Below, piece by piece: positions 7,069 through 64,000 of a stretch of DNA of 64,000 bases. A program made the translations under genes and the position numbers. Source of the DNA: Thermoanaerobaculia bacterium (GTDB lineage Bacteria > Acidobacteriota > Thermoanaerobaculia > UBA5066); contig JAJVIN010000023.1 of NCBI GenBank assembly GCA_022071945.1, positions 1 to 64,000 on the forward strand, in the 5' to 3' direction. Numbering within the stretch: position 1 is the stretch's first letter; every line of letters begins with the position of its first letter. The notes beneath the pieces were generated by a model. The model saw only the letters and a list, made by a program, of their open reading frames with translations. It was not told the DNA's origin and searched no databases.

Positions 7069-7113
7069 TGGTTGCGGGGGCAGGATTTGAACCTACGACC
7101 TTTGGGTTATGAG
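7069..7113 (-). other. tRNA-Met(CAT) 3'-half: attachment site of an integrated element
   Basis: Read on the minus strand, the sequence gives an anticodon loop CTCATAA, the variable region and T-arm (GGTTCAAATCC) and an acceptor end CCCCCGCAACCA. The bases that should form the D-arm and 5' acceptor strand, to the right of 7113, do not fit a tRNA. It is therefore a displaced 3' fragment, not a working gene. Elements that integrate into the 3' half of a tRNA leave such a fragment with its broken end facing the element, so the element should lie to the right, where a tyrosine integrase starts 192 bp away. The complete tRNA-Met should mark its far end. Confidence 0.75.
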
Positions 7114-7304: not shown

Positions 7305-8459
7305 ATGCCGCGAGGACAGAAACCGGGGTGGCGCGACCGTCTCAGAGCGCCCGTCGAGAAGCCCGACAAACCTGTCAAGAAGGAGACCGGGATCTGGCTC
7401 TACCCGTCCGGAAAGTTTGGCGCCATGCTCTACCGAGGTTCCGAGAGCGTCTTCCTCGGCATGCGCGACACGCTCGAAGCGGCCCGCGAACTCCGGAGTG
7501 CCGCGAAGCTCGAACTCAAGGCCGGCCGAGCGCCAGCGTCTCGCATGGCCATTCGCATCACGCTCGACGCGTTCTTCATGGAGACCTTCGTTCCCGAGGC
7601 GCTCGCGGGTCTCAAGGAGTCGTCGCAGCGTGCCGCGAAGTCGCGATTCAACGCGCACCTCCGTGAGCCGCTCGGCGCGCTCGCGGTCGGCGACGTCACG
7701 TACGCGCGATGCGCGAAGCTGCGGGCAGCTCTGGTCGGCCGCGACGACATCTCTGGCCAGACGAAGCGCGAAGTGCTCCTCCTGCTCAGGCAGCTCCTCG
7801 ACGAAGCCGTACGCCGCGGACTCATTGTGACGAATCCAGCCACGCACCTGAAACTCCCCGAGAAGAACGCCCGGGCGATCACGATTCCAGACTTCGCGGT
7901 TGCCCAGCGTGTCGTCGCGGAAATTCGCGGCCCGGTGCCACGGATGCTCGCCGAGCTGCTCCTCCGCAGCGGGCTCCGCTTGAACGAGGCGACCGCGCTC
8001 CAGTGGGACGACATCGATCAGGAGGCAGGTCGGATCCACGTTCGCCGATCGCTCGACCCGGCCACGGGGAAGCTCACGACGCCGAAGACGGCGGAGTCGT
8101 TCCGCGTCGTCGACGTGCCCGAGAGTCTCGTCGCGCTCCTGAAGGTGTACCAGGAGAAGGTGCCCTCCGTGCTCTGGGTCTTCCCCTCGAAAGGGGACGG
8201 GCCGTTCAACGACCGGAACTTCAATCAGCGCCACTGGGCTCCCGCGCTGAAGCGCGCCGGGGCGCCGCACTTCACGCCCCACGGGCTCCGGCACATCTTC
8301 GCGAGCCACCTCCTCCAGCAGGGGGTCGAGATCCTCTACGTCGCGAACCAGCTTGGCCACACGTCCGCGTCCTTCACGCTGAGGCAGTACGGGCACCTCC
8401 TCAGGGAGACGAGTCCATCGCGGGCGAAGCTCGAGACGGCGTTCCCTCCTGAAGGGTAA
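7305..8459 (+). CDS. tyrosine recombinase/integrase of the tRNA-Met element
   Basis: 384 residues with all catalytic motifs of the phage-integrase family: Arg in SGLRLNEATAL near residue 223, HxxR in PHGLRHIFASHLL near 325, His in QLGHTSASFT and the nucleophile Tyr in RQYGHLL near 361. The N-terminal third holds a SAM-like core-binding region preceded by a short Lys/Arg-rich arm segment. It is the first gene inside the predicted left end and presumably catalyses integration at the adjacent tRNA-Met half-site. No excisionase is next to it; the closest candidate is the AlpA-like protein at 12233-12535. Confidence 0.9.
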   Translation: MPRGQKPGWRDRLRAPVEKPDKPVKKETGIWLYPSGKFGAMLYRGSESVFLGMRDTLEAARELRSAAKLELKAGRAPASRMAIRITLDAFFMETFVPEALAGLKESSQRAAKSRFNAHLREPLGALAVGDVTYARCAKLRAALVGRDDISGQTKREVLLLLRQLLDEAVRRGLIVTNPATHLKLPEKNARAITIPDFAVAQRVVAEIRGPVPRMLAELLLRSGLRLNEATALQWDDIDQEAGRIHVRRSLDPATGKLTTPKTAESFRVVDVPESLVALLKVYQEKVPSVLWVFPSKGDGPFNDRNFNQRHWAPALKRAGAPHFTPHGLRHIFASHLLQQGVEILYVANQLGHTSASFTLRQYGHLLRETSPSRAKLETAFPPEG

Positions 8460-38262: not shown

Positions 38263-39567
38263 TCAGCCGTCGAGGTGGTGCACGTCGAGCTTGGACATCG
38301 CCCGCCGGAGGTCGTCGTCGGAGACGGACGAGTAGTAGAGCGTCATCGAGAGGTGCTTGTGGCCGAGCTGGCGCTGGATGACGGGCAGCGGCACGCCGGC
38401 CTCACGCCAGAGATCCGCTGCCGTCCGTCGCAGCATGTGGGGGGTGACGTGCGTGCCGAGGCTCTGGCTGACTATGCGCAGAATGCGGCGCACCGACACT
38501 TCGCCGATGCCCCCATTGCGCGTCGTCGAGACAATGAACTCATCGTCGGTTCGTCCCGCATCTCGCTTCGCGCCGATGTACCGCGTGAAGACCTCGACCG
38601 CTGTCGGACAGCAGACGAGGCGACGCTTCCCGCCGCTCGGTCCCTTGCCGATGACGTGGAGGTCGCCGTTGTCGCGATTTACGTCCCCATTCTTCAGCGT
38701 GAGTGCCTCATCTCGGCGGAGTCCTCCGAGGACGTAGAGGCGCACCAGGCAGCTGTTCCGCGCTGCCTCCAGTTCGGAGCCCCAGGGGAAGTGATCTACC
38801 TTCTCGAGGAGCGCCGGGACGAGCCCGACCAGGAGACGTGGCCGCTCTGGGTCTCCCTGCTTCGGTGTTGCAATCCCCTGGAATGGACTGAAGGCACCGT
38901 CCTGGGCGGCGAGGTGAACGACGACCGTCCGGACAGCGCGGAAGTACCCGTGGATACTGCGACGGCTCATGAGTCCGGATCGCGTCGGTCGCTGCCGGAG
39001 CCACGCCAGCCACTCTTTGATCACGCGCGCCTGCTCCCGCCAGTCTCCTCCGATCCAGGCTCGCTCGAGGTTGTTCGCCCGGACGAACCGAGCGAACGAG
39101 CGGAGCCCATCACGCCGCCAGTTCGCGGTGGTGCGAGCTTTCCCCTCTACGCGGACTTCCTCGTCGACACGGGCCAGGAACCGTCGTTCAAACTCGAGGA
39201 GGGAGTCCATCGCGAACGGGCGACCCGGCACACTGCTCTGGGAGGGGCTTCCGCCCGCAACACCTGTTGCGAAACCCGCGTAGAGCTGACCCACGAGGAG
39301 CTGGATGCGTGGATGAGCCAGCAGTGCCTCCGTACTCAAGTGGTCCAGAGGCAGTTCGCCAGCTGGAAGGAGCGCTTGGCTCGGTGTGCCGCCAGTCCGC
39401 TCATCGCCTCCCCTGTCGGTGGGGAGTGAACCACTCCCTGCGATGGACGAATCCGCCACCGGTACAGAGACCGGGGCGCTCGGCGAATCACGAGGAGATA
39501 GGGGGCGTCTCATGGAACCGGCAAGGAGGGAATCGCTCATCGGGTCGGGGCTACGAACTGTAGTCAT
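38263..39567 (-). CDS. tyrosine recombinase (third integrase)
   Basis: About 434 residues; the start is uncertain because ATGs at 39567 and 39540 both lack a good ribosome site. Catalytic motifs: Arg in VLGGLRRDEALTLK, HxxR in TPHMLRRTAADLW, His in QLGHKHLSMTL and Tyr in LYYSSVSDDDLR. The N-terminal ~120 residues are low-complexity Ser/Pro. It overlaps the 3' end of the TraG-like ATPase gene and runs in the same direction, as if part of that operon; the integrase fragment lies 24 bp beyond its stop. It probably serves the right-hand module. Confidence 0.85.
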   Translation of the reverse strand: MTTVRSPDPMSDSLLAGSMRRPLSPRDSPSAPVSVPVADSSIAGSGSLPTDRGGDERTGGTPSQALLPAGELPLDHLSTEALLAHPRIQLLVGQLYAGFATGVAGGSPSQSSVPGRPFAMDSLLEFERRFLARVDEEVRVEGKARTTANWRRDGLRSFARFVRANNLERAWIGGDWREQARVIKEWLAWLRQRPTRSGLMSRRSIHGYFRAVRTVVVHLAAQDGAFSPFQGIATPKQGDPERPRLLVGLVPALLEKVDHFPWGSELEAARNSCLVRLYVLGGLRRDEALTLKNGDVNRDNGDLHVIGKGPSGGKRRLVCCPTAVEVFTRYIGAKRDAGRTDDEFIVSTTRNGGIGEVSVRRILRIVSQSLGTHVTPHMLRRTAADLWREAGVPLPVIQRQLGHKHLSMTLYYSSVSDDDLRRAMSKLDVHHLDG

Positions 39568-49300: not shown

Positions 49301-49899
49301 TCGCGGGGCTCAACTGCCTCAACCGCGGATTCACCATCACAGCTGCGAACCACGTCGTCCTGGTCGACCTCGAGTACTCGCCCGAGGCGACCGAGCAGGC
49401 CGAAGACCGCGTCCACCGTCCCGGTCAGACGAAGCCGGTCGAGATCACCTACCTCCTCTCCCGCGACACGATCGACCAGGTCATGCACGAGATCCTGCTG
49501 CAGAAGGCGGAGGCCATCCGGCACGCCATCGACGGCCGGGCTCGCTTCACTGACGTGGCTGATCTCCTGAAGCGCGTCACAGGAGACATTCAGGTCGAGA
49601 TCGCCCGTCGCATATCGCTCTTGCCGTCACCAGCGCCCGTCATCGACCTCGTCCCACTCCCGGAACCGGAGATTGTCACTCCGCCCATCGAGCTGCCCTC
49701 AAACGTCATCGCGTTTCCCGTTCCCGAGGTTCCGATCACCGTCCTTCCGATCCCGGCCATCGACCCCGAGGAAGAAGCCCGCCGCCGGGCCTTCTGGGAG
49801 CGGGTGGCTGCCGAGCGGAAAGCCGTGGTCATCCTCCGGCGCCCAACCCGGGTAGCCGCACAGGCTGCCGCGGCGCTCCAACTCTCCCTCTTCGACTGA
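46381..49899 (+). CDS. N6-adenine methyltransferase fused to SNF2-type helicase
   Basis: 1172 residues. N-terminal methylase: VLDPTCGSGRLLAPW (motif I, near 62) and LVLTNPPYGIWWNPP (motif IV, near 125), the order of HsdM-like N6-adenine enzymes. C-terminal helicase: GYLGYEQGGGKTVTAAAW (Walker A, near 530), AVLVDEAQVAKSKNTLRG (motif II, near 703), LILTGTLMKG and EQAEDRVHRPGQTKPVEITY (motif VI, near 1005). A zinc-binding insert (CSVCKRAYEDVITACPKC, then CGACG) lies at about 644-676. No target-recognition domain or nuclease is obvious. Methylase-helicase fusions on conjugative elements and phages may modify or remodel incoming DNA against host defence. Confidence 0.8.
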   Translation: MPETELALGAAYSGREANHALSFRQFNKSKHAQYFTPVWLADLLFELLRCLLPDEDASKVSVLDPTCGSGRLLAPWVAAGATVLGIELDELAATHAKKAIGSTNVRTGDLLDYRSLLSGFSLVLTNPPYGIWWNPPDAGEVWSCETSGGLLESQGATLEICTRALDYGGLLVALIPTSAFQNAKDRSLRDVLYSNFEGILQVTIPKPFVDEYHITLDCDLVVARRVYSSRASDWEPCRDTIDPDRPEASLRAAFRVVQNERALPASRHVPVPVLSRLVSIQPSVHARITPRGVTGSGDVTGLLGFLNHTVTAFDPVSGIERGIVDAVLSPSSLITLGPAAAEETLASLGFAPAIAEKDAKRITRLQEKFSLLRTPLFSPQAHQRLAYLEDRAYPAKNTITDAGQPLFMEGKTYHLRPSWVRNREVAKVETVWDARLEREIQLTTTVDRGYLSITVVTDSGSRVFREVAIDDVRILTDAFELPVVSDLEAVAPRSVERNRRIVAKRAPFLFPFQREDVARMAVKPFGYLGYEQGGGKTVTAAAWAAVRGFRRVLVVCQSSLVENWLNELTQFGFPASRLTTHASVTRLQAEKRTGEKPKETTFFVTSYEFLSLSGQKVYDAWACRSFDKDGTVAHESLDNRKASCSVCKRAYEDVITACPKCSDVPAWTGGFCGACGYRAWTASGDARQWPAYKRLTKLFGAVLVDEAQVAKSKNTLRGRAVRAFRSKGRLILTGTLMKGYPIDVFWNVSWLLGFDTPLFPYAYRGGSKRFLDEFGTYEYVTRQFEESLHEGRAKLLPEVSNLNRFWRLMAAFAVRRRKDDVFELPEKRRRIVLLDLHKEHRELYDAYGEWAKAEIQKALRQNDGNPNMGVISNALWRLRYAATCPVAVDYLDRGVLNATTWNKLDAIVNLVRAAFDKGEKTIVFSGLRVMVAAIAKRFRDLGLKFLPITADVPAAKRFELIQDFSRDPEMSAIVAGLNCLNRGFTITAANHVVLVDLEYSPEATEQAEDRVHRPGQTKPVEITYLLSRDTIDQVMHEILLQKAEAIRHAIDGRARFTDVADLLKRVTGDIQVEIARRISLLPSPAPVIDLVPLPEPEIVTPPIELPSNVIAFPVPEVPITVLPIPAIDPEEEARRRAFWERVAAERKAVVILRRPTRVAAQAAAALQLSLFD

Positions 49900-50207
49900 A
49901 CGTTTCCATCGTTTTCTTCCCGGCGGGGTGGCGTGTGCTGCTCCGCCGGGTTTTTTCTTTGTTGGCGATTATTCCCATGAGGTATGGAGGCTGGATCACA
50001 GCCATTGACTATTCGGCATTCTATAGCATAGTATGAGTAGAACCTACCGACACTTATCTGTCCACCCACATAGCGGATACAGCGACAGCACCCGACCTCC
50101 GTACTGAGTCAGTAGCGGCTGTTTCCCGGCAGCTTGCGGCTGAGGGAGGGGTCACCAGGCCAAGTGAACTTTACTATGGTGACAATCTGACCATCTTACG
50201 TCGATAC
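49900..50207. other. short intergenic region with terminator and unclear methylase start
   Basis: Holds a terminator and then AT-richer DNA. From about 50037 the frame of the next gene is open and protein-like (SELYYGDNLTILRRYV) but has no ATG, GTG or TTG before 50208. Confidence 0.5.
49919..49956 (+). terminator. intrinsic terminator after the methylase-helicase gene
   Basis: 8-bp stem CCCGGCGG/CCGCCGGG followed by six T residues, 20 bases after the stop codon. Confidence 0.8.
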
Positions 50208-51638
50208 GTGAAGGACGAGAGCGTTGATTTGGTGTATCTCGACCCACCGTTCAACTCGCAGAAGAACTACAACATGCTGTTCAAGGACAAAACGGGGAAG
50301 AGGGCCGCAGCGCAGATCAAGACATTCAAGGACACATGGGGATGGGACGAAGGGGCAGAGCGTGCGTACGTCGAGACTGTGGAGGCTGGCGGCACTGTCG
50401 CGGAAACGCTCGTGGCCTTCCGCTCATTCCTGAAGCAGAAGGACATGATGGCGTATCTCTCGATGATGGCTCCGCGTCTCGTGGAACTCCGTCGGGCGAT
50501 GAAGCCCACCGCGAGCCTCTTCCTTCACTGTGACCCTACAGCGAGCCACTACCTCAAGGTGCTCCTGGACGCGGTGTTCGGTGCAGGGAACTTCGTGAAC
50601 GAAATCGCGTGGTGCTATGACACGGGCGGTAGGTCGAAGACGTATTTTCCAAGGAAGCACGACACAATCTTCTGGTACTCGAAAACCTGCAAGGGATTCG
50701 CGTTCCACTACGACCAGGTTGCGATTGCGCGCGACCCATCCACCATGCACGAGTCGGTGCTGACAGACGAAATGGGACGCTCCTACCAGCGGAACATGAA
50801 GAACGGCAGGGAGTACCGCTATTACCTCGATAAGGGGGTGCTTCCGAATGACTGGTGGACGGATATACCCGCTCTTAATCCCGCGGCGAAGGAACGCCTC
50901 GACTACCCGACACAGAAACCCGTGGCACTGCTTGAGCGGATCATCAACTCGGTGACGCTGCGCGGTGAAATCGTCCTTGACCCGTTCTGTGGTTGCGGCA
51001 CGTCAGTTGATGCTGCGCAGAAGCTGGGGCGTACGTGGATCGGAATTGACATTACTGCTCTATCCATCGACGTGATCACGCGCCGTCTCTCGGATGGCTA
51101 CGGCGCGGACATTTCACGCAGTTATCGGCTCGTCGGTGAGCCAACGACGGTGCAGGAGGCTGAGGCGCTTGCGAAGAACAATAAGTACCAGTTCCAGTTC
51201 TGGGCGATCCGACGCGTGGGCGCCTCCCCCGCATCGGGTACGGAGAAAAAGGGTGCTGACGGCGGGATCGACGGTCGTAAGTTCTTCCACGATGGTCTCG
51301 GCGGTGTCATTAAGCAGATCATCCTCTCGGTGAAGGGAGGAAAGCTCAAGATGGACGACGTGAGATCCCTTGCGTACGTCGTGGAAAGGGAGAAGGCAGT
51401 TATCGGTGTCCTCATCAGTAGTGGCGAGCCAACGCCGACGATGCGGGCCGATGCTGCGGCGGCGGGCTTCTACACAGCGACGTCAGGCGAGAAGTATCCC
51501 CGCATTCAGCTCCTGAGCGTTGGCCAGCTCCTTAACGATCCACCTGCTCGTATCGAGTATCCGCACGCGCTCGACGTGACGCATGAGCGCGCACCGAGAG
51601 TTCTTCTTCCTTCCGCCGAGCAGACGTCGCTTATGTAG
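50208..51638 (+). CDS. DNA methyltransferase fused to an Mrr-like nuclease domain
   Basis: At least 476 residues from GTG. Beta-class methylase: LVYLDPPFNSQKNYNMLF (motif IV), LDYPTQKPVALLERI and IVLDPFCGCGTSVDAA (motif I). The C-terminal ~130 residues contain KKGADGGIDGRKFF and QIILSVKGGKLKMDDVR, compatible with an Mrr-type restriction fold (Asp...xVK). The conserved YYGDNLTILRRYVKDESVDL element begins 12 codons before this GTG without any normal start codon, so the true start may be CTG 50058, or a frameshift joins it to an ATG near 50033. A single-chain restriction-modification enzyme is likely. Confidence 0.75.
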   Translation: MKDESVDLVYLDPPFNSQKNYNMLFKDKTGKRAAAQIKTFKDTWGWDEGAERAYVETVEAGGTVAETLVAFRSFLKQKDMMAYLSMMAPRLVELRRAMKPTASLFLHCDPTASHYLKVLLDAVFGAGNFVNEIAWCYDTGGRSKTYFPRKHDTIFWYSKTCKGFAFHYDQVAIARDPSTMHESVLTDEMGRSYQRNMKNGREYRYYLDKGVLPNDWWTDIPALNPAAKERLDYPTQKPVALLERIINSVTLRGEIVLDPFCGCGTSVDAAQKLGRTWIGIDITALSIDVITRRLSDGYGADISRSYRLVGEPTTVQEAEALAKNNKYQFQFWAIRRVGASPASGTEKKGADGGIDGRKFFHDGLGGVIKQIILSVKGGKLKMDDVRSLAYVVEREKAVIGVLISSGEPTPTMRADAAAAGFYTATSGEKYPRIQLLSVGQLLNDPPARIEYPHALDVTHERAPRVLLPSAEQTSLM

Positions 51639-52077: not shown

Positions 52078-52177
52078 GGAAACTCTGAAAAAGGTGCAGC
52101 ATTTTGTGGACAACTCGCGTGATCTTCCTCGGTGAATCGGGGAGAATGTGGGCGTCACCTTCCTCCCCCTCGCCCCC

Positions 52178-53140
52178 ATGCCGCTCCGCCACCACTCGCG
52201 CCAGGTCTCGCTCCTCGCCGCGTCAACCATGAAGGACCTCAAGGTTGACCGCTTCCTCGCGGAGATGGACGCGGTCGTCCCGTGGACGGCCTTCGCCGCG
52301 GAGGTCGCACCGTTCTACACGGTGGCGGCGGTCGGTCGACCCCGCTTCGACATCGAGCTGCTGCTCCGGATCCACGTCCTCCAGCAGTGCTACGACCTGA
52401 GTGACCCCGGCGCCGAGGAGGCCATCCACGACCGGCTGTCCTTCCAGCGCTTCCTCGGGATCGACCCCGCCCGGGACACCGTCCCCGACGAGTCGACCAT
52501 CCTCCACTTCCGCCACCTCCTCGAGAAGCACCGCCTGGCGGAGCGCTTCTTCGCGCTCGTGAACGCGTCGCTCGCGGCGAAGGGGCTCCTGCTCAAGGTC
52601 GGATCCATCGTCGACGCCACGACGCTGCACGCCCCGCCCAGCACGAAGAATCGCGCCAAGGCGCGCGACCCCGAGATGCACCAGACGAAGAAGGGCAACC
52701 AGTGGTACTTCGGCATGAAGGCGCACATCGCCGTCGACGTCCAGCACGGGCTCGTCCACCACCTCGTCACCACGGCGGCCAACGTCCACGACCGGGACGT
52801 GCTGTCCCTCCTCCTCCACGGCACGGAGCAGGTGCTCCTCGGGGACAGCGCCTACGGGAAGCAGGAAGACAAGCGTGCCTGGCGGAAGGAGGGGAAGCAC
52901 TTCCTCGTGAACGACAAGGCCTCTCGCAGCCACCCGCTCTCGTCGTCCCAGCGGAGGCGCAACCGCAAGAAGTCTGGCGTGCGCGCCAAAGTGGAGCACC
53001 CCTTCCGGGTGCTCAAGCGCCAGTTTCACCAGGAGCGCACCCGCTACCGCGGGCTCTTCAAGAACACGCAGCGGCTCTTCACCGCCTTCACCCTCGCAAA
53101 CCTCTTCCGCGTCCGACGACTCCTGCCCACGCTGGTGTAG
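52178..53140 (+). CDS. IS5-family transposase
   Basis: 320 residues from MPLRHHSRQVSLL. N-terminal IS5 domain: GRPRFDIELLLRIHVLQQCY, LSDPGAEEAIHDRLSFQRFL. DDE residues: Asp in SIVDATTLHAP, Asp in VLLGDSAYGKQ and Glu in RAKVEHPFRVLKRQF. FGMKAHIAVD and the YRGLFKNTQRLFTAFTLANL tail are typical. Full-length without frameshift, so probably active. Confidence 0.95.
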   Translation: MPLRHHSRQVSLLAASTMKDLKVDRFLAEMDAVVPWTAFAAEVAPFYTVAAVGRPRFDIELLLRIHVLQQCYDLSDPGAEEAIHDRLSFQRFLGIDPARDTVPDESTILHFRHLLEKHRLAERFFALVNASLAAKGLLLKVGSIVDATTLHAPPSTKNRAKARDPEMHQTKKGNQWYFGMKAHIAVDVQHGLVHHLVTTAANVHDRDVLSLLLHGTEQVLLGDSAYGKQEDKRAWRKEGKHFLVNDKASRSHPLSSSQRRRNRKKSGVRAKVEHPFRVLKRQFHQERTRYRGLFKNTQRLFTAFTLANLFRVRRLLPTLV

Positions 53141-53401: not shown

Positions 53402-56400
53402 ATGAAGATCTTCGACTACCGAGAGAATCTCGTTCGAGATTACGAAACCTACGTCAAGAGCTTCATCTCTATCGCTGATGAGCGCATCCGCTCCTACGTA
53501 GATGAGACGCTCCAGAAGGGGTTGCTCTGGCCCGAACCACTCATCCAGATGAACCCCGCTTTCGAGCCAGGTGACTGGATCGATGAACTCGCCGAAGCTG
53601 GGACACTCCATCCAGAATGCGCAAAGATCTTCCGCCGCGAGAAGGCGAAGCAAGATGGCACGGGCCCAGGGTTCCCACTGCGGCTCCACCGGCACCAAGC
53701 CGACGCCATCCGCGCTGCTCAGACCGGCAAGAGCTACGTCCTGACGACCGGAACGGGTTCGGGAAAGAGCCTCTCGTACATCGTTCCCATCGTCGATCAC
53801 GTGCTACGGCGAGGCTCCGGGAAAGGCATCCAGGCCATCATCGTCTATCCGATGAACGCGCTGGCGAACAGCCAGATCGGGGAACTCCAGAAGTTCCTCT
53901 GCGAGGGGTATCCGGACCGGAAGCCCCCCGTCACCTTCGCCCTCTACACGGGCCAGCAGAAGGACGACGATCGCGAGCGGATCATCGGGGATCCGCCAGA
54001 CATCCTGCTCACGAACTACGTGATGCTGGAACTCCTCCTGACCCGGCCGAAGGAAGACAACCTCATCAAGGCCGCGAAGGGCATGCGGTTCCTCGTGCTC
54101 GATGAACTCCATACGTATCGGGGGCGCCAGGGAGCAGATGTTGCCATGCTCGTCCGACGCGTCCGGAATCGCATGGAGTCTCCGAACCTCCAGTGCGTCG
54201 GAACGTCGGCCACGCTTGCCAGTTCAGGAGACACCGCGACTCAGAAGGAAGAGGTGGCCCGGGTGGCCTCGATCCTCTTCGGGAACGAGGTGCCACCAGA
54301 GAACGTCATCGGGGAGACGCTCCGGCGGGCGACGAAGCCCTTTGACTTCTCGGTTCCGAAGAACCTGACGCTTCTGCGCGAGCGAGTCTCTGATCCGGCG
54401 AAGAATCCTCCTGCAGCCTACGCCGAGTTCCTTGCGGATCCGCTCTCGTCCTGGATCGAATCGACCTTCGGCGTCACCGAAGAATCTGGCACCGATCGGC
54501 TCATCCGCGTGAAGTCTCCGAAACCCGTAGGCGGGGACGGAGGAGCGGCGAAGGATCTGAGCAACCTGATCGGCGTCCCCGAGGAGCGGTGTGCGAGCAC
54601 CATTCGCGAGACGCTCCTCGCGGGGTACGAACTCGCCCGTCACCCCGAGACGAATTCCCCGGCGTTCGCGTTTCGTCTCCACCAGTTCATTAGCCGTGGT
54701 GACACGGTGTACGCCTCGGTCGAACCGGAGGCTGAGCGCTACATCACCGTCCACGGGCAACAGTTTGTCCCAGGTGATCGGGAGAAGGTTCTCTTACCCC
54801 TCGTCTTCTGCCGCGAGTGCGGCCAGGAGTACTACTGCGTCCGCGAGAAGAGCGACAAGCAGAAGGGTGGCACGTCCTTCCTGCCGAGAGAACTCTCGGA
54901 CCGCTTCCCGAGCCCAGACGGCGATCCAGGGTTCCTCTTCCGCTCTGAAGAAGAGAATGTTGCCTGGCCGGATGACCTCGACGCCATCATGGAGCGCATC
55001 CCCGAAGACTGGCTCGAAGAGCGCAAGGGGAAGACCGTCATTCGGAGTAATCGGAAGAAGCAACTCCCCGTCGCCGTCACCGTCGGATCCAATGGGGCGG
55101 TATCGAAGGACGGAACGGTTTTTCACTTCATCCCTGCGCCCTTCCGCTTCTGCCTCCGCTGCGGAATCTCATACGGGGGCCGCCAGATTGCAGACTTCGG
55201 GAAGCTCGGCTCCCTCGGGACCGAAGGCCGGAGCACGGCGACGACGATCCTGGCACTCTCTGCCATCCGGCACCTCAGGAACCAAGACCTGCCGGAGACC
55301 GCCCGCAAGCTCCTCTCGTTCACCGATAACCGTCAGGATGCCTCACTCCAGGCTGGTCACTTCAACGACTTCGTCGAGGTCGGCATCCTCCGTGCGGGCC
55401 TCTTCAAAGCGGCCGAGAAAGCGGGATCCGAGGGGCTCTCGCACGACGTGCTTCCGCAGCGGGTTTTTGAAGCCATGAACCTGCCGCTCGACCTCTACGC
55501 CGCAGACCCCGCTGTCCGGTACCAGCAACTCAACGAGACGCACAAGGCGTTCCGGAGCGTCCTCGGCTACCGGATCTACCGCGACCTGAAACGGGGATGG
55601 CGCATCACGGCCCCGAACCTCGAGCAGTGTGGAATGCTGGAGATTCGCTACCGCTCTCTCCAGGAGCTGTGCCACGAAGAAGCGGACTGGCGAACGCTCC
55701 ATCCGGTGCTCTCTGGCGCTTCACCCGAGCTGCGCGCCGAAGTCTCGAAGACGCTCCTCGACCACATGCGGCGCGAGCTGGCGATCAAGGTCGACTTCCT
55801 GACGCCAACCTTCCAGGAGAGCATCCGGCAGCAGAGCAGCCAGCGGCTCCGCAGCCCTTTCGCACTCGACGAGAACGAGACCGATCGGATGGAGACCTCC
55901 TCCATCATGAAGCCGTGCAAGCGGCCCGAGCACGTCGAGTCCGAACTGGTGCGCTACCTGACGGGACGAGGCGGGTTCGGCCAGTACCTACGGAGAAAAC
56001 TCCCGTTCGAGCCCCAGAAGAAGGTGGAGCAGACAGACATTGTCATCCGCGAGCTTCTCGCGACGCTGAAGATTGCGGGCCTCGTCGAGATCGTCGAAGA
56101 GCCCCGTTCCAAAGACGACGTGCCGGGCTACCAGATCCCTGCATCGAGCCTGCAGTGGGTCGCCGGTGATGGCACGAAGTCCTTCCACGACCCGATCCGC
56201 GTCCCGAGGGAGCCTGTCGACGGTGGCCGGACGAACCCGTTCTTCGTCCAGTTCTACCGCGCGATCGCCGGGGAGACGCAGGGTCTCGAAGCCCGCGAAC
56301 ATACGGCTCAGGTTCCATCCCAGCTTCGAGAGAAGCGAGAGAGCGACTTCCGGAATGCCGCTCTCCCCATCCTCTTCTGCTCGCCGACGATGGAACTCGG

Positions 56401-58945
56401 GGTCGACATCTCGGAACTCAACGTCGTGAACCTGCGGAACATCCCGCCCACGCCCGCGAACTACGCCCAGCGAAGCGGACGCGCCGGGCGCAACGGCCAA
56501 CCCGCCATGGTCTTCTCCTACTGTGCGGTTGGGAACAACCACGACCAGTACTTCTTCAAGCGTCCCGAGCAGATGGTCGCGGGGTCCGTGATGCCGCCAC
56601 GGCTCGACCTCACGAACGAAGACCTCATCCGGGCGCACGTCCACTCCATCTGGCTTGCTGAGACAAAGGTCGACCTCAAGGGTTCCTTGAAGGACATCCT
56701 CGACGTCATTGGCGAGGAGCCGACGCTGGCGCTCCAGGGGAACGTCCAGATGGGGCTCGCGAGTCTTCCGGCGAAAGAGCGCGCCAGGAAGCGGGCGAAA
56801 GCCGTCCTCGACTCCATGGCGGACGAACTCGTGAACGCCCCGTGGTACACGCCCGACTGGCTTGACCGCGAACTCGATCAGGTCCTCCTCCGATTCGACC
56901 GGGCCTGCGACCGCTGGCGCGGTCTCTACCGCTCGGCGCTCGACCAGCAGAAGACGCAGAGCAAGATCGTCCGCGACGCCTCTCGCACCGACATGGACAA
57001 GCAGCAGGCCAAGCGCCTACGCGCGGAGGCCGAAGCGCAGTTGAAGCTCCTGACCGAGGTGGACTCCCTCGCGCAGTCCGACTTCTTCAGCTACCGCTAC
57101 TTCGCGAGCGAGGGATTCCTTCCGGGGTACAGCTTCCCACGCCTGCCGCTCTCGGCGTTCATCCCGGGGCGGAAGAGCAAGCAGGGGGACGAATTCCTCC
57201 AGCGGCCTCGCTTCCTCGCCATCTCCGAGTTCGGCCCGCGCGCGTTCATCTACCACGAGGGATCCCGCTACCTCATCAACCGGGTGATGCTGCCGGTGGG
57301 AGAGGAAAACGCCATCACAGAGCGGCGGGCGAAGATCTGCCCCGAGTGCGGGTACCTCCACGAGCTGAAAGACGCAGGCGGCCCCGACCTCTGCGAGAAC
57401 TGCACGTCGGCTCTCACGGGTCCCACGACGCTCATGACCGGCCTCCTGCGCCTGCAGAACGTCTCGACACGCCGGCAAGACAAGATCAACTCCGACGAGG
57501 AAGAGCGCTTCCGCATGGGGTACGACCTCCAGGCGACGGTACGGTTCTCAGACTTCGGCGGTGTCCCGACCCGCACGGCCTCCGCCACCATCGACGGCAA
57601 GGAGTTCCTGAATCTCCGCTACGGGCAAGCTGCAACCATCTGGCGGATCAACCTCGGCTGGAGCCGCCGGAAGGACAAGGGAATCTTCGGCTTCGTCCTC
57701 GACCGCGAGCGCGGCGTCTGGGGGCGGAACGATCTCATCGAGGATAAGGACCAGGAAGATCCGATGTCTGCCGCCCAGATCCGCGTCATCCCGTTCGTCG
57801 AGGACCGCCGGAACTGCCTGCTTCTGAAGCCGGCGCTGCCCTTGCCCGTGGACGTCATGGCGAGCCTCCAGTACGCCATCAAGAACGCAATCCAGGTCGA
57901 GTACCAGCTCGAAGACAACGAACTCGCCGTGGAGCCGCTGCCGAACGTTGAGAGCCGGAATCTCATGCTGCTCTACGAGTCTGCCGAAGGCGGGGCGGGC
58001 GTCCTGCGTCGTCTCGTCGAGGAGCCCGCAGCCCTCCCCAGGGTGGCTCGCAAGGCGCTCGAACTCTGCCACTTCGATCCCGTCACCGGCGAAGACCAAG
58101 GCCAGGCTCCAAAGGCGCACGAACGCTGCGAGTCCGCCTGCTACGACTGCCTCCTGAGTTACGGCAACCAGCGCGATCACCGTCTGCTCGACCGGAACCT
58201 CATTCGCGAGACGCTCCTCTCCCTCGCGTCTGCGCCCATCGAGGCATCCGCTTCCGCGAGGACGCGAACCGAGCACCTGGAGATGCTCCTGCGGCAAGCC
58301 GAGTCGAACCTCGAACGCCAGTGGCTCGAGTACCTCGAGGAGTGGCAGCTCCGCCTGCCCTCGCGTGCCCAGAAACTCCTCCCGGCCTTCAGCACGCGGC
58401 CGGACTTCACCTACGAGGATGACCAGACCGTCATCTACGTCGACGGTCCGCACCACGATTTCCCCGAGCGACAGAAGCGTGACCGGGAGCAGGAGGCCAA
58501 TCTCGACGATGCCGGGTTCACGGTGATCCGGTTCGGACTTCGTGACGACTGGGATGCCATTGTGAAGAAGTTCCCGGACGTCTTCGGAACTCCGAACCAC
58601 AGGCCCGGGACACCGGCCCGGAAGCAGCCTGCTTCCCCGCAAGCGCCGAAGGGCTTCGATCCCGACCTCTTCCCCGACAAGTGGGTGCCCGTACTCCAGG
58701 GCGTCTCGACGGATACCGGTGTCCGGATCGAACCGGGGACGGACATCGAAGATGGGGGGCGGGTGATCGGGAGCGTCACGGCAACCATCGTGAAAGACGG
58801 CGTCACCCTCCACGTCATCGACACGAGCCTTGATACCGCGAGCGATGTCGAAGCCGTGCTGAAGAAGCGCGGCGAGCGCAGTCTTCAATCGTCCCCGGAA
58901 ACGGCAGCAGACCTCATTCGCTCTGTACTCTCAAAACCCCTATGA
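53402..58945 (+). CDS. giant DEAD/DEAH helicase with DUF1998 and C-terminal nuclease-like domain
   Basis: 1847 residues from MKIFDYRENLVRDYETYVKS. Superfamily 2 helicase: Walker A VLTTGTGSGKSLSYIVP (near 120), FLVLDELHTYRGRQGADVAM (motif II, DELH), ELGVDISELNVVNLRNIPP and AQRSGRAGRNGQPAMV (motif VI, near 1020). Cys clusters ICPECGYLHELKDAGGPDLC (near 1312) and CESACYDCLLSYGNQRDHR (near 1575) mark the DUF1998 part. The C-terminus has PDFTYEDDQTVIYVDGPHHD, then DDAGFTVIRFG, like a Vsr/DUF559 endonuclease fold. First of four genes joined by 4-bp overlaps. Related helicase-DUF1998 proteins occur in DISARM and other helicase-rich defence systems; there the two parts are usually separate. Confidence 0.8.
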   Translation: MKIFDYRENLVRDYETYVKSFISIADERIRSYVDETLQKGLLWPEPLIQMNPAFEPGDWIDELAEAGTLHPECAKIFRREKAKQDGTGPGFPLRLHRHQADAIRAAQTGKSYVLTTGTGSGKSLSYIVPIVDHVLRRGSGKGIQAIIVYPMNALANSQIGELQKFLCEGYPDRKPPVTFALYTGQQKDDDRERIIGDPPDILLTNYVMLELLLTRPKEDNLIKAAKGMRFLVLDELHTYRGRQGADVAMLVRRVRNRMESPNLQCVGTSATLASSGDTATQKEEVARVASILFGNEVPPENVIGETLRRATKPFDFSVPKNLTLLRERVSDPAKNPPAAYAEFLADPLSSWIESTFGVTEESGTDRLIRVKSPKPVGGDGGAAKDLSNLIGVPEERCASTIRETLLAGYELARHPETNSPAFAFRLHQFISRGDTVYASVEPEAERYITVHGQQFVPGDREKVLLPLVFCRECGQEYYCVREKSDKQKGGTSFLPRELSDRFPSPDGDPGFLFRSEEENVAWPDDLDAIMERIPEDWLEERKGKTVIRSNRKKQLPVAVTVGSNGAVSKDGTVFHFIPAPFRFCLRCGISYGGRQIADFGKLGSLGTEGRSTATTILALSAIRHLRNQDLPETARKLLSFTDNRQDASLQAGHFNDFVEVGILRAGLFKAAEKAGSEGLSHDVLPQRVFEAMNLPLDLYAADPAVRYQQLNETHKAFRSVLGYRIYRDLKRGWRITAPNLEQCGMLEIRYRSLQELCHEEADWRTLHPVLSGASPELRAEVSKTLLDHMRRELAIKVDFLTPTFQESIRQQSSQRLRSPFALDENETDRMETSSIMKPCKRPEHVESELVRYLTGRGGFGQYLRRKLPFEPQKKVEQTDIVIRELLATLKIAGLVEIVEEPRSKDDVPGYQIPASSLQWVAGDGTKSFHDPIRVPREPVDGGRTNPFFVQFYRAIAGETQGLEAREHTAQVPSQLREKRESDFRNAALPILFCSPTMELGVDISELNVVNLRNIPPTPANYAQRSGRAGRNGQPAMVFSYCAVGNNHDQYFFKRPEQMVAGSVMPPRLDLTNEDLIRAHVHSIWLAETKVDLKGSLKDILDVIGEEPTLALQGNVQMGLASLPAKERARKRAKAVLDSMADELVNAPWYTPDWLDRELDQVLLRFDRACDRWRGLYRSALDQQKTQSKIVRDASRTDMDKQQAKRLRAEAEAQLKLLTEVDSLAQSDFFSYRYFASEGFLPGYSFPRLPLSAFIPGRKSKQGDEFLQRPRFLAISEFGPRAFIYHEGSRYLINRVMLPVGEENAITERRAKICPECGYLHELKDAGGPDLCENCTSALTGPTTLMTGLLRLQNVSTRRQDKINSDEEERFRMGYDLQATVRFSDFGGVPTRTASATIDGKEFLNLRYGQAATIWRINLGWSRRKDKGIFGFVLDRERGVWGRNDLIEDKDQEDPMSAAQIRVIPFVEDRRNCLLLKPALPLPVDVMASLQYAIKNAIQVEYQLEDNELAVEPLPNVESRNLMLLYESAEGGAGVLRRLVEEPAALPRVARKALELCHFDPVTGEDQGQAPKAHERCESACYDCLLSYGNQRDHRLLDRNLIRETLLSLASAPIEASASARTRTEHLEMLLRQAESNLERQWLEYLEEWQLRLPSRAQKLLPAFSTRPDFTYEDDQTVIYVDGPHHDFPERQKRDREQEANLDDAGFTVIRFGLRDDWDAIVKKFPDVFGTPNHRPGTPARKQPASPQAPKGFDPDLFPDKWVPVLQGVSTDTGVRIEPGTDIEDGGRVIGSVTATIVKDGVTLHVIDTSLDTASDVEAVLKKRGERSLQSSPETAADLIRSVLSKPL

Positions 58946-61002
58946 CCGTCGCTTTCGCCCGCACCTTCATGGAATCTGCGAACCAGCTCACGCTCCCGGA
59001 GCGGGGGCGGGTGTTCGACTTCATGACGAAGTACCAGCAGAACGCCGCACACCCGAGCCTCAGCCTCGAGCGGATCTCAAACGCGGACAAGAGCCTCTGG
59101 TCGGCACGGATTACCCAGGGACTCCGCGCCATCCTCGTGAAGGATGGTGACCAGTCGATCTTCCTCTACGCGAGCCACCATGACGATGCGTACACCTGGG
59201 CCGAGCGGCGGCGGTTCGAGAATCACCCAGTGACCGGCGCCGTCCAGGTGGTCGAAGTGGCGTCGGCCGTCCGGGAGGAGGTGGACTGGCAGACGAGCCC
59301 TGGGAAGCCGAGCCTCTTCGCGACGCGGAAAGACGAGTACCTCTCGAGCCTCGGCGTCCCCCTCGACTGGCTCCCGCTCCTGCACGAGGTGCAGACGGAG
59401 GAGCAGCTCCTCTCGATCATCGACCGGCTCCCCGAGGAAGTCGCCGAGCGCCTGCTGCGCCTGGCCTCGGGAGAACTCGTCGCGCCGCCAGCCCCCGTCT
59501 CACCCGGCGCACCGCTCTCGGCCAATCCGGACAACCTCCGCCGCTTCCGCGTGATCGAGAGCGAAGCGGAGTTGCAGGAAGTCCTCTCGAAGCCACTCTC
59601 TGCCTGGCTCCACTTCCTCCACCCCTCGCAGCGCGACCTCGTGACCGCCACCTTCAAGGGGCCCGTCAAGGTGACAGGTGGCGCGGGCACGGGGAAGACT
59701 GTCGTCGCGCTCCACCGGGCACGGCACCTCGCCAAGCCGGGGAAGAAGGTCCTTCTCACGAGCTTCGTCGGTACCCTCTGCCGGAACTTCGAGCGGAGCC
59801 TCGACATCCTCTGCTCGGGTGACGAGCGCAAGCGAATCACCGCCGCCACCGTCACGTCGGTGGCGCTCGACCTCCTGAAGACGAACGACAGCAAGCTCAT
59901 CTTCGCTGACGAGCAGGGAGAGAAAGCCGAACTCAAGGTGTGCGCCTCGTTCGCCGAGGAGTACGGCGACGTCAAGTTCCTGTGGACCGAATGGCGGAAG
60001 GTCATCTCGCCGCAGGGCATCACCACGTGGGCCGAGTACCGGGACGCCCAGCGCACCGGCCGCGGCAAGCCCCTCACGGTCGCAGCGCGCAAGAAGATCT
60101 GGCAAGCATTCGCAGAGGTGATCGAACGGCTCGAAACGAAGAAGCGCTTCCCTGAGTTCCTCGCCGCGAAGAAGGCCACCCTCGCGCTGGAAGCCGGGAC
60201 GCTGGTCTCTCCGTTCGACGCGGTCCTCGTGGATGAAGTCCAGGATCTCACCCCCGTCGCCCTGCGCTTGATCGCCGCGCTCGGGAAGAAGACGCCGGAG
60301 AATCTGCTCGTCGTCGGTGACGCAGGACAGCGCATCTACCCCCGGGGCTTCAGCCTTCGCGCCCTCGGAATCGACGTCCGGGGCCGCTCGCGCATTCTCA
60401 AGTTCAACTACCGCACCACGAAGCAGATTCAAGCCGCGGCGGAAGCGGTCCTGAGCGGTGACGTGGACGACCTCGACGGAGAGACCGAGACCCGAAAGGA
60501 CGTCCAGTCGATTCTCAGCGGCCCCGTCCCGGTTCTCTCCGGCTTCGAGACCCCGCGCGAGCAGGACGCATTCATCGTCTCCGAGATCGAGCGCTTGAAG
60601 GCCAACGGATTCCAGCTCTCGGAGATTGCGGTCTTCGCACGGACGAACGACCTCGCGCGGTCGATCCAGAACGCGCTCCACAAAGCTGGCATCGAGAGCG
60701 GCCTCATCGACCGCTCGACCGATGGCACGGAAACGGGCGTGCAGATCGGGACGATGCACCGCGCCAAGGGGCTCGAGTTCAAGGCCGTCATCATTTCGAA
60801 CTGCCAGGAAGGCTGCCTGCCGTCACCGGCTGCACTCAAGGAGGCCGACAGTCCGGCGGAACGGGAGATCCTGCTCGCGCTCGAGCGCCAGCTCCTCTAC
60901 GTCAGCCTCACGCGCGCCCGGGACGAGGCGATCGTCACCTGGTGCGGGGAGCCTTCGCCGTTCCTCTCCGCGCTTCTCCAGACTCAGAGGACTGCCCCAT
61001 GA
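58942..61002 (+). CDS. UvrD-like helicase with RelE-like N-terminal domain
   Basis: 686 residues; starts in an ATGA overlap. The first ~90 residues (LTLPERGRVFDFMTKYQQNA, then SARITQGLRAILVKDGDQSI and LYASHHDDAYTWAERRRFE) follow a RelE/ParE toxin-like fold. Superfamily 1 helicase: VKVTGGAGTGKTVVALHRA (Walker A, near 244), AVLVDEVQDLTPVALRLI (motif II, near 429), GDAGQRIYPRGFSL, IGTMHRAKGLEFKAVIIS and LLYVSLTRARDEAIVTW. The insert between motifs I and II is short. It may process DNA exposed by its neighbours; the RelE-like part could bind RNA or be autoregulatory. Confidence 0.8.
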   Translation: MTVAFARTFMESANQLTLPERGRVFDFMTKYQQNAAHPSLSLERISNADKSLWSARITQGLRAILVKDGDQSIFLYASHHDDAYTWAERRRFENHPVTGAVQVVEVASAVREEVDWQTSPGKPSLFATRKDEYLSSLGVPLDWLPLLHEVQTEEQLLSIIDRLPEEVAERLLRLASGELVAPPAPVSPGAPLSANPDNLRRFRVIESEAELQEVLSKPLSAWLHFLHPSQRDLVTATFKGPVKVTGGAGTGKTVVALHRARHLAKPGKKVLLTSFVGTLCRNFERSLDILCSGDERKRITAATVTSVALDLLKTNDSKLIFADEQGEKAELKVCASFAEEYGDVKFLWTEWRKVISPQGITTWAEYRDAQRTGRGKPLTVAARKKIWQAFAEVIERLETKKRFPEFLAAKKATLALEAGTLVSPFDAVLVDEVQDLTPVALRLIAALGKKTPENLLVVGDAGQRIYPRGFSLRALGIDVRGRSRILKFNYRTTKQIQAAAEAVLSGDVDDLDGETETRKDVQSILSGPVPVLSGFETPREQDAFIVSEIERLKANGFQLSEIAVFARTNDLARSIQNALHKAGIESGLIDRSTDGTETGVQIGTMHRAKGLEFKAVIISNCQEGCLPSPAALKEADSPAEREILLALERQLLYVSLTRARDEAIVTWCGEPSPFLSALLQTQRTAP

Positions 61003-63839
61003 ACTTCACCATCGGAAGCCTCGTCAATGCGCGCCACCGGGAGTGGGTTGTCCTCCCGGGATCCACCGATGAGGCGCTTCTCGTGCGACCCCTCGGCGGG
61101 ACTGAGGCCGAGACCACGGCCCTGCTACCAGCGCTCGAGTCCGTGGTGTCCACCCAGTTCTCACCACCTGACCCCACCCGGCCGGGGGATGACCGGTCTT
61201 GCCGGTTGCTGCGAGACGCCGTCCGCCTCGGCTTCCGATCGAGTGCCGGACCGTTCCGATCCTTCGCGCGCATCAACGTCGAGCCGCGGCCCTACCAGCT
61301 CGTGCCGCTCCTGATGGCGCTCCGGCTCGATCCCGTTCGGATCCTCATCGCCGATGACGTTGGAATTGGGAAGACCATCGAAGCGGGGCTCATCGCGCGT
61401 GAACTCCTGGACCGTGGCGAAGTCGAGCGGATGGCCGTTCTCTGCCCACCACACCTGGCCGAGCAGTGGCAACGCGAACTCCACGAGAAGTTCCACGTCG
61501 AGGCGGATCTCGTCCTCCCGAGCACGGTCGCGCGGCTCGAGCGGCCCTGCAACATCGGGGAGTCGCTCTTCGAGTACCCGGGCCGCCGCTTCTTCATCGT
61601 CTCGACCGACTTCATCAAGTCCGACCGCCGCCGCGAGGAGTTTCAGCGAGCCTGCCCGGAACTCGTCATCATCGATGAGGCGCACACCTGCGTCTCATCG
61701 ACCCAGGGCGCCCACCAGCGGTACAAGCTCGTGCGCGGACTCGTCGAGAGATCCGACACGCGCCACATCATCCTCGTCACGGCGACGCCGCACAGCGGGA
61801 AGGAAGAGGCTTTTCGCGATCTCCTCACGCTGCTGAATCCTGAATTCCAGGATCTTCCGGCGGATCTGACGGGACCACAGAACGAGCCCAATAGGCGGCG
61901 CGTTGCCGCGCACCTCGTCCAGCGGCGGCGTGGCGACATCCTGCAGTACCTGGATGCCCGCACGGACTTCCCCCGGCGGGACGTCCTCAAAGACGTCACC
62001 TACAAGCTGTCCCCCGAGTACAAGCGGCTCTTCGATCGCGTCCTCTCCTACGCCCGCGAGGTGGTTCACGACCCCGCGCAGGGGACCCGGCACCGTCAGC
62101 GGATTCGCTGGTGGTCGATGCTGGCCCTGCTGCGGTCGCTCGCATCGAGCCCGCGCGCTGCGGCTCAGACGCTGCACACGCGATCCGGCACCGCGGATAC
62201 CGAGACGGAGGAGCAGGCCAACGAGGTCGGGAAGCAGTCGCTCTTCGACCTTTCCGAGAGCGAGGCGGCCGACGGCTTCGACAACGCTCCCGGCGCTGAC
62301 GCTGGTGAGGAATCGGCCGAAGAGGGCAAGGTTCGCAAACGGCTCGAGGAAATGTCCCGTGACGCCGCGAAACTCGAAGGGGCGAACGACCAGAAGCTCC
62401 AGACCGCGATCGCCTTCATCAAGAAGGAACTGCTCGGCGCCGGGTTCAACCCGATCATCTTCTGCCGCTTCATCCCGACCGCCGAGTACGTGGCGGAGGC
62501 GCTACGAAAGGCGCTCCCTGCCGACATCGAAGTCCAGGCGGTGACCGGGGCACTCCCTCCAGAGGAGCGCGAACTCCGGGTGCTCGAACTCGGGAAGGCG
62601 AAGCGCCGCGTCCTCGTCGCCACCGACTGCTTGAGTGAAGGGATCAACCTGCAAGAGTACTTCGACGCGGTGTTCCACTACGACCTCTCATGGAACCCGA
62701 CGCGCCACGAGCAGCGCGAGGGCCGCGTCGACCGGTACGGCCAGAAAGGCGTGAGGGACGAGACCGGGCAGGGAGCCATCCGAACCGCGACGTACTACGG
62801 CATCGACAACTACATCGACGCCATCGTCGTCAGGGTGTTGCTCAAGCGGCACAAGACGATCCAGGGGACGCTCGGCGTCTCGGTTCCCGTTCCGTTCAAT
62901 CCGGATGAGGTGATCGAAGCCGTCTTCGAGGGGCTCCTGCTCCACGAGAAGCAGGGGGAACTCTTCGAGGACTTCTTCCAGCCCAAGCAGCGCGAACTCG
63001 ACTTCAAGTGGAAGGAAGCCGAGGACCGGGAGACGCGCTCGCGGACCATGTTCGCCCAGCTCTCGATCAAGGTGGAAGACGTGGCGCGAGAGCTGACCGA
63101 GATTCGTGCCGCGATTGGCGCCGGGGCGGATGTGAGGAGCTTCATGCGTGAGGCGCTGTCAGCCTATGGCTCGGCCGTCTCGCAGAAGAACGGTCTCCTG
63201 AACGCCGACCTGATGGGGACGCCTCGCGCGCTCCAGGAGGCGCTGGCGCTCGAGAAGATGGACCTCCATGCCCGCTTCGAGAAACCCGTCGACGACGATG
63301 AGGTCTACCTGACTCGAACGCACCCAATCGTCGAAGGACTCTCGGCGTTCGTCTTCTCCCACGCGCTCGACGAAGCCTCGATCGAAGGAAAACCCGCCGC
63401 GAGAAGGTCCGGTGTCATCTACACGGACCAGGTACAGAGGAAGACGACGCTGCTCCTCGTCCGCTACCGGTTTCAGATCTCGAGCAGGAAGCCGGATGGC
63501 TCCCCCAGTTCAACCCTCGCCGAAGACATCGGACTGCTGGCCTTCGAAGGGTCGCCTTCGAGCCCCGTCTGGATCCCAAGCGAGCGCGCCGTGGACATCC
63601 TTCATGCCAAGCCTGGCAAGAACATCGGGGCGGACCGGGCCACATACTTCCTCGAACGCGTGATCCCAGATCTCCCTCACCTAGCACCACACTTCGAAGA
63701 GCGGGCGCGGCAGCTCGCCGAGCAGCTCCACGCATCACACACCCGGGTTCGTCCCCGGACCACGCGCCGCTATCGCGTCGAGCCGTACCTGCCGGTCGAT
63801 GTCCTGGGCGTCTACCTCTACTTCCCGGTGCAGCCATGA
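60999..63839 (+). CDS. SNF2-family helicase, DrmD-like
   Basis: 946 residues from MNFTIGSLVNARHREWVVLP, an opening typical of helicases next to phage-defence methylases. RILIADDVGIGKTIEAGLIA (Walker A, near 117), LVIIDEAHTCVSSTQGAHQR (DEAH, near 223), ILVTATPHSGKEEAF, LVATDCLSEGINLQEYFDAV and HEQREGRVDRYGQKGV (motif VI, near 570). A charged insert follows about residue 400. The size, motifs and placement directly before an Eco57I-like methylase match DrmD of class 1 DISARM. It overlaps both neighbours by 4 bp. Confidence 0.8.
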   Translation: MNFTIGSLVNARHREWVVLPGSTDEALLVRPLGGTEAETTALLPALESVVSTQFSPPDPTRPGDDRSCRLLRDAVRLGFRSSAGPFRSFARINVEPRPYQLVPLLMALRLDPVRILIADDVGIGKTIEAGLIARELLDRGEVERMAVLCPPHLAEQWQRELHEKFHVEADLVLPSTVARLERPCNIGESLFEYPGRRFFIVSTDFIKSDRRREEFQRACPELVIIDEAHTCVSSTQGAHQRYKLVRGLVERSDTRHIILVTATPHSGKEEAFRDLLTLLNPEFQDLPADLTGPQNEPNRRRVAAHLVQRRRGDILQYLDARTDFPRRDVLKDVTYKLSPEYKRLFDRVLSYAREVVHDPAQGTRHRQRIRWWSMLALLRSLASSPRAAAQTLHTRSGTADTETEEQANEVGKQSLFDLSESEAADGFDNAPGADAGEESAEEGKVRKRLEEMSRDAAKLEGANDQKLQTAIAFIKKELLGAGFNPIIFCRFIPTAEYVAEALRKALPADIEVQAVTGALPPEERELRVLELGKAKRRVLVATDCLSEGINLQEYFDAVFHYDLSWNPTRHEQREGRVDRYGQKGVRDETGQGAIRTATYYGIDNYIDAIVVRVLLKRHKTIQGTLGVSVPVPFNPDEVIEAVFEGLLLHEKQGELFEDFFQPKQRELDFKWKEAEDRETRSRTMFAQLSIKVEDVARELTEIRAAIGAGADVRSFMREALSAYGSAVSQKNGLLNADLMGTPRALQEALALEKMDLHARFEKPVDDDEVYLTRTHPIVEGLSAFVFSHALDEASIEGKPAARRSGVIYTDQVQRKTTLLLVRYRFQISSRKPDGSPSSTLAEDIGLLAFEGSPSSPVWIPSERAVDILHAKPGKNIGADRATYFLERVIPDLPHLAPHFEERARQLAEQLHASHTRVRPRTTRRYRVEPYLPVDVLGVYLYFPVQP

Positions 63840-64000
63840 AACGTCAGAACTTCGGATTCACAGCGGTCACGACCGAGGGTGCACTCCTGCCGCCGGATCT
63901 CCTGAAGCGAATCTCGGAAACCGACGAAGGGCTGAAGGGGCTCAAGCCCACGGACTACCACCTCGTCCCCGGAGAGCGTCTGAACGAGACGATCAACCGG
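63836..64000 (+). CDS. start of an Eco57I/PglX-like DNA methylase, cut by window end
   Basis: 55 residues are visible: MKRQNFGFTAVTTEGALLPP, LKGLKPTDYHLVPGERLNE and on. The opening G(F)TxVxTEGALLPPDLL and YHLxPGERLNEAIxRSW pattern is characteristic of the large N6-adenine methylases with Eco57I domains encoded beside DrmD-like helicases. It starts inside the helicase stop (ATGA). Catalytic motifs lie outside the window. It would be the modification or host-marking part of the operon. Confidence 0.7.
   Translation, partial: MKRQNFGFTAVTTEGALLPPDLLKRISETDEGLKGLKPTDYHLVPGERLNETINR

Follow-up and report, generated by a model that had tools for sequence, protein, structure and literature searches.

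The four genes at the right-hand end of the DNA analysed here form an operon of the ARMADA family that belongs to the type I clade and carries an armD module. The window, that is, the whole 64,000-nucleotide stretch from a Thermoanaerobaculia bacterium, makes up the initial 64 kb of a contig that is 163,960 bp long (G000:C13), and our reading was extended rightward along that contig. The four genes do form an intact operon, and motifs for helicase, nuclease and methylase are retained in the four ARMADA proteins. We consider it probable, though well short of certain, that the operon is an intact anti-phage ARMADA of the type I clade with the armD module, in which ArmD is coupled to ArmC through a C-terminal tail of ArmC.

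All four genes lie on the forward strand in the order C-D-A-B, with armD between armC and armA, and ATGA overlaps join them at three of three junctions (armC-armD, armD-armA and armA-armB). The armC gene (53402..58945, +) encodes a YprA-family SF2 helicase of 1847 aa, which the tree places in the type I ARMADA clade; it matches Pfam DEAD, Helicase_C, MZB and DUF559, and its best PADLOC family is DruE. Its MZB/DUF1998 zinc-binding domain lies at 57866..58153 (+; PF09369, E 2.0e-11); its Vsr-type PD-(D/E)xK nuclease domain at 58298..58588 (+; DUF559, E 1.2e-6, and a predicted model compared with Vsr 1cw0_A); and its C-terminal tail, a putative degenerate PD-(D/E)xK-like domain by comparison of its model with VRR-NUC 4qbn_A, at 58664..58942 (+). 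The armD gene (58942..61002, +) encodes a RelE-like domain fused to a UvrD/GajB-like SF1 helicase, 686 aa in total (UvrD_C, UvrD-helicase and GajB profiles); the RelE/YafQ-like domain comprises residues 1-85 (58942..59196, +; predicted model with pLDDT 89, compared with YafQ 4mmj). The armA gene (60999..63839, +) encodes a BrxHII/RapA-like SNF2 helicase (SNF2-rel_dom, Helicase_C; PADLOC PDLC02853). The armB gene (+) has its first 55 codons in the window (63836..64000) and runs on to contig position 67738; the whole ORF on the extended contig (L004:836-4738) encodes a PglX/Eco57I-like methyltransferase of 1300 aa (Eco57I, E 7.9e-18; N6_Mtase; DrmMI profile). The armC start at ATG 53402 gives an N-terminus, MKIFDYREN, that matches its relatives in the alignment. 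For armA, the mechanical ORF opens at GTG 60942; ATG 60999 (MNFTIGSLV) was chosen instead, because it results in an ATGA overlap and agrees with the relatives. A gene for an IS5-family transposase (window 52148-53140) ends about 260 bp upstream of the armC start and may affect the armC promoter.

An earlier, sequence-only reading of this DNA had described four ATGA-joined genes: a DUF1998 helicase-nuclease of 1847 residues on one chain, a UvrD helicase with a RelE-like N-terminus, an SNF2-type helicase and an Eco57I-like methylase. The junctions were verified on the sequence and the Pfam matches bear out all four descriptions; the RelE-like N-terminus was too weak for sequence profiles, and the predicted fold confirms it. 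That reading also took the genes for a multi-helicase defence operon related to DISARM yet distinct from it, and wondered whether related clusters were catalogued under another name. Both ideas were well placed: all four proteins match ARMADA, the same four components of which are described in a preprint (PMC12458937), and composition as a novelty falls for the same reason. In the search of profile sets that it proposed, the PADLOC names point to four different systems. It missed the type I clade of ArmC, the position of armD, the co-variation of armD with the tail, and a fifth, Ppl-like gene.

In the description by Bell et al. (2025 preprint, PMC12458937), ArmA is BrxHII-like, ArmB PglX-like, ArmC YprA-like with a Vsr nuclease, and ArmD GajB-like with a RelE-like N-terminus; as a rule, though not strictly, the order in type I is C-A-B, and the main text gives this type without ArmD, whereas type II is strictly A-B-C-D and includes ArmD. 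According to the same text, phage protection is demonstrated for the E. coli type II system only, in which all four genes are required and protection is non-abortive (PMC12458937). ARMADA membership is borne out here by a YprA helicase that belongs to the ARMADA clade in a tree with WP_000937974.1 and has a C-terminal Vsr nuclease by its fold. Neither published type fits cleanly, as ArmC is of the type I clade, yet armD is present. With type I, as described in PMC12458937, the locus shares a YprA ArmC of the same clade, one Vsr domain, and ArmA and ArmB following in the same direction with tight coupling; it differs from the main-text description in the armD that interrupts C-A-B and in the extra C-terminal tail of ArmC. 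With type II (E. coli NCTC 12900, PMC12458937), it shares the four kinds of protein, including the RelE-UvrD ArmD, and a homologous, apparently inactive nuclease tail on ArmC; it differs in gene order (C-D-A-B, not A-B-C-D), in the clades of ArmC and ArmD, in the distance of ArmA and ArmB, and in lacking the stretch that type II ArmC has between the Vsr domain and the tail.

The trees place the locus more precisely. The comparison set combined 80 ArmC loci from named genomes with type II references taken from plasmids and from E. coli, WP_000937974.1 among them. WP_000937974.1 is the E. coli type II ArmC reference and WP_108720193.1 the type I reference (PMC12458937); the type I clade was recognised by its C-A-B order and its separation from type II, not through WP_108720193.1. 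In the ArmC core tree, a quick tree that excludes the tail columns and places long branches (Haematobacter, outgroups) unsurely, the window ArmC groups inside type I (100, starred) beside G009 and G005 (99, starred), and type II lies far off. Among relatives of the same class, G005, G067, G108 and G001 are C-A-B and G009 is C-D-A-B. The sequence-only reading had proposed to ask whether the four-gene order recurs, and it does so in nine other genomes from several phyla, making ten C-D-A-B loci: the window, G009, L051 (an Olavius spirochete symbiont), L064 (a Proteobacteria MAG), L092 (an Obscuribacterales MAG), L098 (a Myxococcales MAG), G345 (L142), G507, G789 and G528. In G009 a contig break falls midway through armD, so that the locus lies on two contigs; L051 is cut by a contig end within armA, and armC of G528 is split over two contigs; several of the loci are MAGs, but they come from separate assemblies. 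In the ArmD tree, in which six of the ten loci are represented, the C-D-A-B armDs group in a single clade (98/97) that is separate from type II armD. On the ArmC tree the C-D-A-B state requires nine changes, at least six of them on starred branches, and a single ArmC clade of C-D-A-B systems is therefore rejected, even though the armDs from those six loci group together. In Mycobacterium sp. shizuoka-1 (L112:22110-24215) the arrangement is different: the order is C-A-B-D, ArmC lacks the tail and armD is type II-like.

The tail and armD behave like a single module, which C-A-B systems appear to acquire or shed together. When a type I ArmC is followed by armA, its chain ends right after the Vsr domain; when it is followed by armD, it extends further by about 95-160 residues, with a tail of about 95 residues, in 10 of 10 cases. 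The gene that follows armC can be identified in 87 type I loci, of which 10 have both tail and armD, 76 have neither, one has the tail only, and none has armD directly after a tailless ArmC, so that armD adjoins 10 of the 11 tails; in L070, whose ArmC is of the tailless type, an unrelated extension stands in place of the tail. Fisher's test gives p 2.7e-12, a statistic that ignores relatedness. In five independent starred pairs, armD goes with the tail in 4.7 on average and the opposite way in none; the corresponding sign test on starred branches has a median p of 0.0625, a level of 0.05 being out of reach with five pairs. The first seven tails were used to build the tail profile; G507, G789 and G528 came later, through ArmC searches. 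The closest comparison is that of G009, with tail and armD, and G005, with neither: their ArmCs are 84% and their ArmAs 82% identical, and G005 has a stop and a short spacer instead. Such joint gain and loss across many bacteria suggests that the tail may be the way in which ArmD connects to ArmC.

The one tail followed directly by armA belongs to G785, where the VDG...H part of the Vsr domain is lost, and that domain or locus looks decayed. G785 also has (L206:4760-10726) a RelE-UvrD protein in a 1989-aa open frame that runs into a second helicase/nuclease-like region matched by DpdJ/MkoA profiles. Some ArmD-like proteins have no tail beside them: they follow type III-like restriction genes (L018, L020, L042-L044, L144 and L149), adjoin a kinase-like gene (L143) or belong to the C-A-B-D locus L112. 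In the type III-like restriction loci of the initial set, neither the methylase nor the restriction protein beside armD matched the tail profile. The tail is therefore not required by all ArmDs, and its binding to ArmD is putative; because BrxL and ZorE also carry it, as described below, its partner need not be ArmD alone.

Structure prediction gives two PD-(D/E)xK-like domains at the ArmC C-terminus (pLDDT 88), with an uncertain relative orientation (pTM 0.49). Model residues 36-132 resemble Vsr (1cw0_A, Z 8.2, rmsd 2.7 over 91 residues; 3r3p_A, Z 9.3), and this Vsr domain keeps RPDF...YVDGPHHD. The tail, model residues 158-250, resembles VRR-NUC 4qbn_A (Z 7.8, rmsd 3.4 over 85 residues) and, with Z 5-7, Holliday-junction resolvases. 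A PD-(D/E)xK-like fold of the tail is thus likely from the model, though not certain, because middling Z scores of such size are common; for type II ArmC, Bell et al. predict an inactivated domain of the Vsr family (PMC12458937), with which this fold is in agreement. The ArmD N-terminus is modelled with pLDDT 89 and pTM 0.83 and resembles YafQ (4mmj, Z 10.3, rmsd 2.0 over 85 residues) as well as many RelE-family toxins. His80 and Tyr84 of ArmD are invariant in 19 ArmDs from several contexts, and by position offset His80 would lie near YafQ His87.

Homologous tails are found beyond the type I clade. The profiles of type I and type II ArmC tails align in register (hhalign probability 91%, E 1e-6), although in single-profile searches the type I tail profile alone gave no direct match to type II or ZorE tails. 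Trained on seven ArmCs, a type II tail profile also picks up the tail in loci outside its training set, on proteins encoded immediately upstream of armD, among them a DruE-like helicase next to armD (L148, E 1.8e-15). The same profile matches a BrxL in Allomeiothermus (E 3.7e-7). This BrxL of Allomeiothermus silvanus (L015:195-1682) has the tail-like stretch at its C-terminus, stands just upstream of armA, and is a BREX-type Lon protein joined to ARMADA. The profile also matches ZorE in the E. coli island that combines Zorya II, Druantia III and ARMADA II (E 1.4e-13, or 5.8e-12 with E. coli excluded from the profile), and the PADLOC ZorE2 profile gives matches down to E 3.8e-15. The C-terminal extension of Zorya type II ZorE (PMC13192584) is therefore homologous to type II ArmC tails; it differs from the ArmC case in being carried by an HNH nickase of another system. 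The presence of this extension is linked to synergy between Druantia III and Zorya II in PMC13192584, and we did not find its homology to ArmC tails stated in the main text of either PMC12458937 or PMC13192584. It is possible, and we put it forward tentatively from these profile matches, that an inactive nuclease-like tail serves as a portable adaptor that recruits ArmD or a shared partner to ArmC of both types, to DruE-like helicases, to ZorE and to a BrxL.

The operon is part of a 67.5-kb island that has integrated into a tRNA-Met gene. A 45-bp perfect direct repeat of the 3' part of this tRNA gene marks one island end as an attachment-site copy (7069..7113); the tRNA-Met gene itself is at contig 74583-74659 (L004:11583-11659), with its copy of the repeat at contig 74583-74627, and a tyrosine integrase is encoded just inside the repeat of the window (7305..8459, +; PF00589, E 1.1e-25). 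Mobile, tRNA-inserted islands are the setting of ARMADA described by Bell et al. (PMC12458937), and this island fits that description. Its cargo comprises LmuA/LmuB-like genes, a TIR protein, relaxase-like and coupling-protein-like genes, methylases, ARMADA and Ppl. The LmuA/LmuB-like pair (Lamassu-type; window 8539-12058; PADLOC E 1.9e-126 and 1.6e-189) stands next to the integrase, and the TIR-domain, effector-like protein is encoded at window 20103-21242. Two more integrases (34952-36058 and 38263-39570) suggest nested or composite elements. Just upstream of ARMADA (window 46381-51638), an SNF2 helicase fused behind a methylase-like N-terminus (1172 aa) is followed by a DNA methylase with an Mrr-like C-terminus, a possible restriction or defence pair. 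On the other side, a Ppl-like PHP-AAA gene (contig 67748-70432, L004:4748-7432) starts 9 bp past the armB end and is probably in one transcript with armB. As a conserved part of ARMADA this fifth gene is rejected: no Ppl homologue lies within reach of the other ARMADA loci examined; four whole genomes with ARMADA loci also gave none, in a scan where no positive control gave a signal.

We propose the following working, by analogy with described systems as regards the function of this copy, the order of steps and the physical contact between tail and ArmD. ArmB, the methylase, and ArmA, the SNF2 translocase, would mark or inspect DNA to tell self from phage and then load the machinery, in line with proposals made for DISARM and BREX relatives. 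ArmC, as a YprA-family helicase, would track on single-stranded stretches and cut through its Vsr nuclease domain. ArmD, with its SF1 helicase and RelE-like domain, would be held to ArmC by the inactive nuclease-like tail and would extend nucleic acid processing by further unwinding, degradation or cleavage; C-A-B systems would gain or lose this capacity as one module.

The main rival to a connecting role is that tail and armD travel together merely as one recombination block, the tail being a passenger without a role of its own. They are DNA neighbours that a single event can move or delete together, as G005 and G009 illustrate, and ArmD homologues do adjoin other, tailless genes; this gives the passenger account an appreciable, if minority, share of our belief. 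A neutral tail, however, would be expected to decay at random while armD stays, and in none of the 87 loci does armD directly follow a type I ArmC that lacks the tail; moreover, the tail keeps a common core across phyla, and homologous tails precede armD on type II ArmC and DruE-like helicases. RelE-family toxins are commonly held by a partner protein, and ArmD could accordingly be mainly a toxin, a RelE-like RNase freed on infection, with the ArmC tail as its antitoxin-like holder. The RelE/YafQ fold, the invariant His80 and Tyr84 in 19 ArmDs and the putative position of His80 near YafQ His87 speak for such a toxin, but no likeness to an antitoxin was found for the tail, which is nuclease-like in its predicted fold, and E. 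coli ARMADA II is described as protecting without cell death or metabolic shutdown (PMC12458937); we regard the toxin account as unlikely.

Alternatives to the identity itself fare worse than the coupling of ArmD to ArmC in a type I system. A type II ARMADA with rearranged genes would explain armD and the ArmC tail, both of them type II features; however, ArmC, ArmA and ArmB are mostly 40-60% identical to those of C-A-B systems and about 22-37% to those of A-B-C-D systems, ArmC goes to type I in its tree (100, starred), and armD falls outside the type II armD clade. The trees thereby refute rearrangement, unless ArmC is a recombinant hidden from these trees, and we hold it very improbable. The profile names would instead make the operon a variant of DISARM or Druantia, to which we give next to no credence. 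PADLOC 2.0.0 assigns the four genes to families of four different systems (armC to DruE, armD to GajB-like, armA to DpdE and armB to DrmMI/IIG), and a DrmD profile matches as well. DISARM class 1 does contain common relatives, in DrmA/B (helicase and DUF1998), DrmD and DrmMI, but the NCBIfam DrmD score is 305.5 bits against a cut-off of 610; DUF1998 is here fused to the helicase chain and not separate, ArmD is extra, and neither drmA, drmB or drmC nor a PLD gene such as that for DrmC occurs in the operon or in the next genes scanned rightward, where armB is followed by the Ppl-like gene, as the sequence-only reading expected of a system other than DISARM. Druantia type III supplies the nearest PADLOC match of ArmC, its DruE-like helicase, but the four-gene operon and the next genes scanned rightward hold no DruH, and ArmC ends in a Vsr nuclease in place of PLD. 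ArmA matches PDLC02853, labelled DpdE, with 871.6 bits over nearly its full length; the label is misleading. No 7-deazapurine insertion genes were found among the operon neighbours scanned, and Dpd is rejected. Gabija is likewise rejected, as that identity rests on profile names only.

In conclusion, we place this operon in the ARMADA family as a type I system with an armD module. As the PADLOC 2.0.0 labels name four other systems, annotation will probably miss such ARMADA loci or give them a wrong name, and the DpdE label of PDLC02853 on ArmA means that they may be listed under Dpd. ARMADA has been described only recently; since armD, its RelE-UvrD helicase gene, is gained and lost together with a single small domain of ArmC, that domain points to the way in which ArmD is built into the system. 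ZorE bears this domain too, which suggests that systems sharing an island are physically linked. If the tail is a portable adaptor, it would provide a common physical basis for assembling and synergising the defence systems of one island.
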